Of a stretch of DNA of 32,970 nt, positions 31,769 through 32,970 are shown piece by piece. Position 1 is the stretch's first letter. Each line of letters starts with the position of its first letter. Both the position numbers and the translations under genes were made by a program. Origin of the DNA: Gracilibacter sp. BRH_c7a (GTDB lineage: Bacteria; Bacillota; Desulfitobacteriia; Desulfitobacteriales; Syntrophobotulaceae); contig LOEZ01000070.1 in assembly GCA_001516055.1 (NCBI GenBank), positions 1 through 32,970 of the forward strand. The letters run 5' to 3'. The notes below the pieces were generated by a model. The model was given only the letters and a program-made list of their open reading frames with translations. It ran no database searches and was not told where the DNA came from.

Positions 31769-32554
31769 ATGTTTAACCGTAATAGCATCGGTTATTGGAC
31801 CGATAAAGATAAAAGGATGGAAGCAGCTCATCTGCTTGATCTTTGTAACAGTGTTGTTGAGAGTAAAGAGAGAATGGTGACACCATTTTTATCTCTTGGG
31901 ATATCCTCTTGGCTAAAAGATGTACTTCAGGGAAGTTCAGTTAATTTTTTGGCGTGGGGTGGATTTGAAAACTCGGAAAGAGTTAGATTTGTACTAACAA
32001 CGGAGCCAGAAAACCTTTATTGTGAACAGGCTCAGATTGTTCTTCTTCAGGCAATCTCCAGTGAAAAGACAAAGAAGCTTGGTCATCGAAGCATTTTAGG
32101 GTCATTAATGTCACTTGGCTTGGAAAGGGAAGTAATTGGTGATATCCGTCAAAGTGAAGAGGGATTTATAATCGCTGTTACTGATCAGATTAAGCAATAT
32201 ATCTTACAAAACTGGCATAGTGCAGGATCAGAAAAAATTAACGTAGAGATTTGTAAGGAAGCTGTAAATATACTACCTGTCTCAGGAGTAGAGAAAAGGA
32301 TAATATCAGCTTCTTTTCGTTTAGATGCTTTAGTGGCTGCCAGTTTTGGACTCTCCAGAGGTTTAGTTCAAGAGAAGATTAGACAGGTGACTATCTTACT
32401 TAATGGACTAACCGCTCTTAAGCCGGATGCAGAAGTAAAGGTTGGAGATATTCTTTCCTGTAGGGGAGAAGGTAAAATAAAAATCTTAGATCAGGATGGG
32501 CAAACTCGCAAAGGAAAAAACGCTTGGAGGATATTTGTATATACTGACAATTAA
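31769..32554 (+). CDS. ylmH: YlmH, S4-domain RNA-binding protein
   Basis: A protein of 261 residues. The N-terminal ~180 residues form the YlmH domain (SERVRFVLTTEPENL; LGHRSILGSLMSLGLEREVIGDI), followed by an S4 RNA-binding domain (~185-245: RLDALVAASFGLSRGLVQEKI, VTILLNG, KVGDILSCRGEGKI). Family members bind ribosomes and have been linked to ribosome rescue, and the gene is widely conserved in the ylm locus. ATG 31769 follows yggT by 3 nt, with only a weak AGGA directly before it, so coupling to yggT translation is likely. In many Firmicutes divIVA follows; here the T-box region follows directly. Confidence 0.92.
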   Translation: MFNRNSIGYWTDKDKRMEAAHLLDLCNSVVESKERMVTPFLSLGISSWLKDVLQGSSVNFLAWGGFENSERVRFVLTTEPENLYCEQAQIVLLQAISSEKTKKLGHRSILGSLMSLGLEREVIGDIRQSEEGFIIAVTDQIKQYILQNWHSAGSEKINVEICKEAVNILPVSGVEKRIISASFRLDALVAASFGLSRGLVQEKIRQVTILLNGLTALKPDAEVKVGDILSCRGEGKIKILDQDGQTRKGKNAWRIFVYTDN

Positions 32555-32635
32555 AAGATGGACTTTTCTTTTCTATCAACTTTATATATAATACTAATAT
32601 GGTTTTATGAAAAGTATATTGGTTTAATATTATGA

Positions 32636-32903
32636 TGAGGAAGATATCTGCCTTAAAACTCTTAACAGCGAACAGGATGCGGTGGAAGCCTGGAAGTGTA
32701 TGGTAGAATATTATCACCTCGGAGTGATTTGCTGAACAGTAGAATATCAAACCCATGGTATTCTCATAGTAGGCCGATCCGGTTAGTTCCCGTTAAAAAA
32801 CTAAAAGTGGTTTAATGCATATCTCAACTACGAAGAGAATTCATTAAACAATGAAGGTGGTACCGCGATTAATATTCGTCCTTAAACATAAGGGCGTTTT
32901 TTT
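32636..32903 (+). ncRNA. T-box riboswitch leader, isoleucine specifier (likely for ileS)
   Basis: The T-box sequence GAAGGTGGTACCGCG (32853-32867) contains the TGGT bulge that pairs with an ACCA tRNA end. In stem I, GAGG (32637-32640) pairs with CCTC (32717-32720) and CTGCC (32648-32652) with GGTAG (32702-32706). The internal loop between them has ATC (32713-32715) followed by A, exactly where the specifier codon sits, so tRNA-Ile is the expected ligand. The apical part (CAGG-ATGCGGTGGAAG-CCTG) resembles known stem I ends. The terminator is CGTCCTT (32877-32883) with AAGGGCG (32890-32896), then seven T. The regulated gene, by convention ileS, lies beyond the window. No clear promoter was found, though TATTAT (32628-32633) may be its -10 box. 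Confidence 0.9.
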
Positions 32904-32906
32904 GAC

Positions 32907-32970
32907 GTCCACGGATGGACTAATGCCGCGGTGCCATGGATGGCAAGGAGCGGCAAGTCCACGGATGGAC
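32907..32970 (+). repeat. GC-rich palindromic repeat cluster with 25-bp period (runs off window)
   Basis: GTCCACGGATGGAC occurs at 32907-32920 and again at 32957-32970, the last base of the window. Between them, TGCCGC (32924-32929) pairs with GCGGCA (32950-32955) around an inner TGCCATGGATGGCA (32932-32945). The core CCAYGGATGG recurs at 32909, 32934 and 32959, exactly 25 bp apart. Each copy folds as a 5-bp stem with a four-base YGGA loop. The GC content contrasts with the AT-rich neighbourhood. I cannot name the family, and the right border is unseen. Confidence 0.75.

Follow-up and report, generated by a model that had tools for sequence, protein, structure and literature searches.

A TwoAYGGAY-like hairpin repeat between the T-box and ileS in Gracilibacter sp. 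BRH_c7a, a possible mRNA-borne decoy for CsrA

The array between the T-box and ileS

The window, the stretch of DNA analysed here, is the entire contig LOEZ01000070.1 (32,970 nucleotides; C70 below) of Gracilibacter sp. BRH_c7a. Its genes include sepF, an ORF that is yggT-like by its sequence, and ylmH, followed by a T-box and an array of hairpins within which the contig ends. The features concerned, all on the + strand, are:

31769-32554, +: gene for a YlmH-type RNA-binding protein, the last gene before the T-box (Pfam YlmH_RBD, 54.9 bits)
32623-32886, +: T-box leader of ileS (Rfam RF00230, 101.4 bits); ileS itself lies behind the same array on contig C11
32877-32903, +: intact T-box terminator hairpin (8-bp stem) and T-run (seven T)
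32904-32970, +: start of the array, truncated where the contig ends (64 bases match C11:1-64 exactly; empty site in genome G001)
32907-32920, +: hairpin 1, GTCC-ACGGAT-GGAC, loop at 32911-32916 (sequence; covariation in 62 copies)
32924-32955, +: hairpin 2, TGCCGC/GCGGCA around TGCC-ATGGAT-GGCA, loop at 32936-32941 (sequence; covariation in 62 copies)
32957-32970, +: hairpin that opens the second unit, with its loop at 32961-32966 (sequence); the rest of this unit is on C11

The first-pass annotation had located the motif CCAYGGATGG at 32909, 32934 and 32959, and direct reading of the sequence gives the same three copies at 32909-32918 (CCACGGATGG), 32934-32943 (CCATGGATGG) and 32959-32968 (CCACGGATGG), spaced by exactly 25 nt. 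No further exact copy occurs elsewhere in the window. The palindromes that it described are also present, with GTCC/GGAC and TGCC/GGCA arms around the loops and TGCCGC/GCGGCA enclosing the middle copy. Its 25-bp period is correct as the spacing of hairpins (25 nt from GGA to GGA), but the true repeat unit is 50 bp long and holds two distinct hairpins: GTCC-ACGGAT-GGAC, TAA, TGCCGC-GG-TGCC-ATGGAT-GGCA-AGGA-GCGGCA, A. Both have a 6-nt loop of the form A-N-GGA-N. The array stretch folds better than 200 out of 200 dinucleotide shuffles (z -4.8). In the lowest-energy fold the units pair with one another, which would hide most loops, and the local hairpins are favoured only under a limited pairing span.

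Contig C11 opens with 64 bases identical to the end of the array on C70, carries further units and continues into ileS. It contributes one more unit, then a diverged unit (GATC-ATGGAG-GATC), then ileS at position 232, and the order of genes in the window up to the T-box is consistent with this junction. When the contigs are joined by the 64-base overlap, the ileS leader contains at least six A-N-GGA-N hairpins, a lower bound given with an assembly that breaks within the array; the repeats explain a break at this point. The array starts right after the T-run of the terminator and extends towards the ileS ribosome-binding site. It had been placed where the Shine-Dalgarno sequence (SD) would be expected, but the ileS SD, AGGAGG, is present downstream (C11:219-224) and is not replaced by the array, because it lies about 80 nt past the last good hairpin (C11:127-140).

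Copy number, distribution and insertion

In its own genome, the repeat has 23 related places based on a DNA search and about 22 good copies based on the covariance model R1. The paired motif occurs nine times genome-wide, versus zero for the reversed control pattern. Among relatives, copies were detected in 52 of 100 genomes searched, all from the same order and with up to 59 copies each. Occurrence across the phylum is patchy, with carriers in 21 out of 398 sampled genomes. Some of these belong to other families, with copy scores of 68-75 bits, which suggests horizontal spread of the sequence. In a separate collection, most of the named carriers are assemblies of Peptococcaceae, Desulfosporosinus and Gracilibacter. 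A description of the repeat family was not found in the literature on CsrA with REP or MITE elements or on Dehalobacter repeats, and the main text of a REP survey does not name these genera (PMC3733652).

The copies are of two types, one compact and one long with outer inverted repeats, the sequence of which varies between copies. An outer stem around the two hairpins is seen in the long forms and not at the ileS array. Compact copies in operons lie mostly in the sense direction (15 versus 4, P = 0.02) when classified manually, with classes drawn after the contexts had been viewed, and P is 0.12 with an automatic threshold. The long copies have no preferred orientation relative to flanking genes. 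A strict terminator scan was satisfied at 3 of 24 compact sites, against 0.2 expected in shuffles, and further cases were apparent by eye; we consider this a tendency and rejected terminator targeting as a rule.

Several other copies are found in distinctive contexts. Four diverged ones (L023, L024, L026 and L027, on contigs C14, C86, C56 and C34) are near contig ends, with several other palindromes around them, and one of the four is directly behind 23S rRNA. On contig C91 (L015:1501-1964), a copy shares its strand with a second T-box (78 bits) and lies about 120 bases downstream of it. In three same-genus relatives (L110, L126 and L157, near 1981-2068) the repeat and the upstream gene overlap at the gene's 3' end, and the repeat stops a few bases short of the SD of the next gene.

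A comparison with sister strains, as the first-pass annotation had proposed, revealed an empty site. At this position the sequence reads TTTTTTT-AGGTTC in the same-genus genome G001 and TTTTTTT-array-AGGTTC in BRH_c7a, and from AGGTTC onward the leaders and ileS starts align closely. No clear target duplication was recognized at this filled/empty ileS site. The repeat is likewise missing from the remaining relatives in which a T-box precedes ileS. The one exception, G010, is from another genus and has its own repeat units, also directly behind the terminator T-run. The empty site suggests that the array was inserted. We took the occurrence of both filled and empty sites among close relatives as the mark of a mobile repeat, and this was seen at one locus.

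The array had been described as a REP-like or mobile element, or as part of a larger array. The repeat is indeed multi-copy, palindromic and REP-like, and the array continues beyond the end of the window, but the search for a linked transposase was negative: there was no R1 match at any of the four Y1-transposase loci of the genome. The two findings named in advance as speaking against that description, a sequence found only once in the genome and a repeat belonging to the coding region of the next gene, did not materialize, as the repeat is multi-copy and non-coding; we rejected the coding repeat since ileS starts only at C11:232. Short length, palindromic form, high copy number, intergenic location and rarity in divergent gaps are shared with REP elements and MITEs. 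RAYT-mobilised REPs are defined by an unpaired GTAG or CGTC tag at one end (PMC3733652). The present repeat differs from them in that it has no unpaired tag (the GTC of ACGTCC/ACGGCC sits in the stem), in its loop rule and in that no linked RAYT was found. A RAYT-mobilised REP was rejected based on the absence of both Y1 linkage and the unpaired tag.

Loop conservation and the CsrA consensus

Across 62 distinct copies, A and GGA are fixed in both loops with one exception, while all four bases occur at the N positions of both. Little or no variation is seen in the closing C-G pair, and the stems show covariation, with 67 double-change cells compared to 24 in shuffles. The search model R1 was built from such copies, so independent evidence on the loops comes from the flanks outside the model. 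There, extra ANGGAN hairpins with different stems occur, in almost every case immediately 3' of the core: the sense strand has 42 and the opposite strand 3, and shuffled sequences yield 2. The ANGGAN hexaloop is the recognition element of RsmE/CsrA (PMC7652899; CANGGANG in PMC4894983), and the repeat loops match this hairpin consensus, A-N-GGA-N with N variable. The first-pass annotation missed the match. Because the consensus is kept in every loop while the stems covary, the likely meaning of the sequence shifts from a DNA palindrome to a protein-binding site in RNA.

The genome encodes csrA (C20, 91.8 bits) adjoining fliW, and both are beside flagellin. Flagellin leaders are the classic CsrA target. 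The leader of the genome's own flagellin gene (hag) reads TAATCGC-ATGGAT-GCGATTA, followed by CATGGAGG over the SD. An ANGGAN hairpin is present in all 25 of the flagellin leaders readable in the order, against 0.8 expected, and in about 22 of the 25 it is positioned at -35 to -39. Therefore, the type of hairpin in the repeat is evidently one that CsrA uses in this order. The pattern agrees with the two-site control of hag in B. subtilis (PMC7652899). Presence or absence of csrA was dropped as a line of support, being too weak: co-occurrence with the repeat (P = 0.03 at 90% completeness, uncorrected for kinship) is only weakly informative because csrA is nearly ubiquitous. Several draft genomes with repeat copies show no csrA, and most of these are incomplete.

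The closest known family is TwoAYGGAY (RF01731). It was described from human gut as well as from Gammaproteobacteria and Clostridiales (PMC2864571), was later predicted to bind CsrA (PMC4333381) and is grouped with rsmX in Rfam clan CL00106. The repeat resembles it in the tandem pair of hairpins, in the A-Y-GGA-Y loops (ACGGAT and ATGGAT here, compared over the 62 copies), in the outer stem of the long forms and in its occurrence in Clostridia and in the same genomes: RF01731 matches occur in 41 genomes of the order, 39 of which also contain the R1 repeat. At 6 of 10 RF01731 loci, R1 gives a weak alignment to the core. Unlike TwoAYGGAY, the second hairpin of the repeat has its own GCCGC/GCGGC extension, compact copies have no outer stem, and there are tandem 50-bp arrays. 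Relative to the RF01731 gathering cut-off of 43 bits, the array, the C30 copy and one Desulfosporosinus-type copy score 19-28 bits (19.1 for the C11 part, 19.8 for C30), and the window copy has no match to the model at E 5. Since it fails this score test, membership was rejected for the window copy, which we call TwoAYGGAY-like and not a member. The same genome has one full TwoAYGGAY RNA, at 47.1 bits and so above the cut-off, near the start of contig C31 (L038:100-257).

Two other systems are relevant for comparison. With CsrB/CsrC and RsmX/Y/Z, the sponge RNAs of Gammaproteobacteria, the repeat shares a series of hairpins, GGA loops and room for several CsrA dimers. In contrast to these RNAs, its sites are dispersed, many of them within mRNAs (at ileS, in an mRNA leader), no dedicated sRNA gene was seen, and it is found in another phylum where FliW is present. 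The CsrA sites of hag/flaA leaders have the same ANGGAN hairpin, but hag combines a single upstream hairpin with a site at the SD, whereas the repeat forms a tandem array away from the SD and is found in many unrelated mRNAs.

Possible functions of the array

Our preferred interpretation, held with modest confidence, is that the array is a TwoAYGGAY-like, mobile repeat of CsrA sites that serves as an mRNA-borne CsrA decoy. It would belong to a family of short, structured RNA repeats that is dispersed, mobile-like and of TwoAYGGAY-like design, and whose sense-strand hairpins would each display the CsrA/RsmE loop A-N-GGA-N closed by C-G. One such repeat would have entered the site immediately behind the ileS T-box terminator and multiplied there in tandem. 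Read-through of the T-box would then produce an ileS mRNA with at least six hairpins about 25 nt apart, of which neighbouring pairs could each bind one CsrA dimer. The most likely effect would be titration of CsrA by decoys carried on mRNAs, given many copies genome-wide. The CsrA-site reading is well supported by the sequence but unproven, and we infer CsrA binding itself, the transcription level, the mechanism of mobility and titration. Counting against this reading are the inter-unit fold of the array, which would conceal most loops, the draft genomes that carry copies but show no csrA, and the unoriented long copies, which would suit a DNA element equally well.

Selfish DNA is an unlikely alternative. 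Here the repeat would be a REP- or MITE-like palindrome, its loop fixed by a putative transposase that reads the single-stranded hairpin, and CsrA binding would be incidental. The dozens of copies, some of them identical, the patchy distribution, the empty site, the long forms with outer inverted repeats, random orientation and rarity in divergent gaps are all as expected, and the genome does have four Y1 transposases. These genes, however, have no copy nearby, one loop rule holds across at least three hairpins with different stems, and the loop equals the CsrA consensus and the flagellin leaders letter for letter. A palindrome without a specific partner, persisting because it is stable or is repaired from a hairpin template, is very improbable: it would account for the strong folding, but its loop would be expected to drift, yet N positions and stems vary around a fixed A and GGA, and the loop rule holds on one strand only.

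Regulation in cis, in which CsrA bound to the repeat alters translation, stability or termination of the carrier mRNA (here ileS) as in hag/flaA leaders, appears improbable as the explanation of the array. The sense bias of compact copies in operons and the copies that reach to within a few bases of an SD (L110, L126 and L157) are in its favour, although the bias weakens under automatic classification and relatives control ileS by a T-box without the repeat. With about 80 nt separating the SD from the last good hairpin, a direct block of ileS translation is less likely than titration.

CsrA titration by mRNA-borne decoys would have wider consequences. We tentatively propose, while regarding it as somewhat doubtful, that a mobile repeat has spread CsrA sites across Dehalobacter- and Desulfosporosinus-type genomes, creating a distributed, mRNA-borne sponge that helps to tune free CsrA outside the Gammaproteobacteria. 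At the time of the proposal that TwoAYGGAY is a clostridial CsrA-titrating sRNA, such sRNAs had been identified only in Gammaproteobacteria (PMC4333381), and the known CsrA antagonist of Gram-positive bacteria is a protein, FliW (PMC7652899). If the proposal is true, a repeat family that supplies a genome with dozens of CsrA-type hairpins would offer a second means of setting free CsrA, genome repeats would be linked to a global regulator, and the uncharacterised TwoAYGGAY class would gain a testable function.

Unusual csrA genes were observed in other genomes. Single frames of 150 and 144 codons (G020:C13:32721-33056 and G016:C12:40887-41222) encode two CsrA domains in tandem, as if a fused dimer. 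Extra csrA clusters, of two or three, are present by flagellin genes in Desulfosporosinus-type genomes (G033:C6:115102-116462, G043:C21, G050:C1:2729184-2730410 and G067:C77), where some frames are very long, up to 1978 codons.
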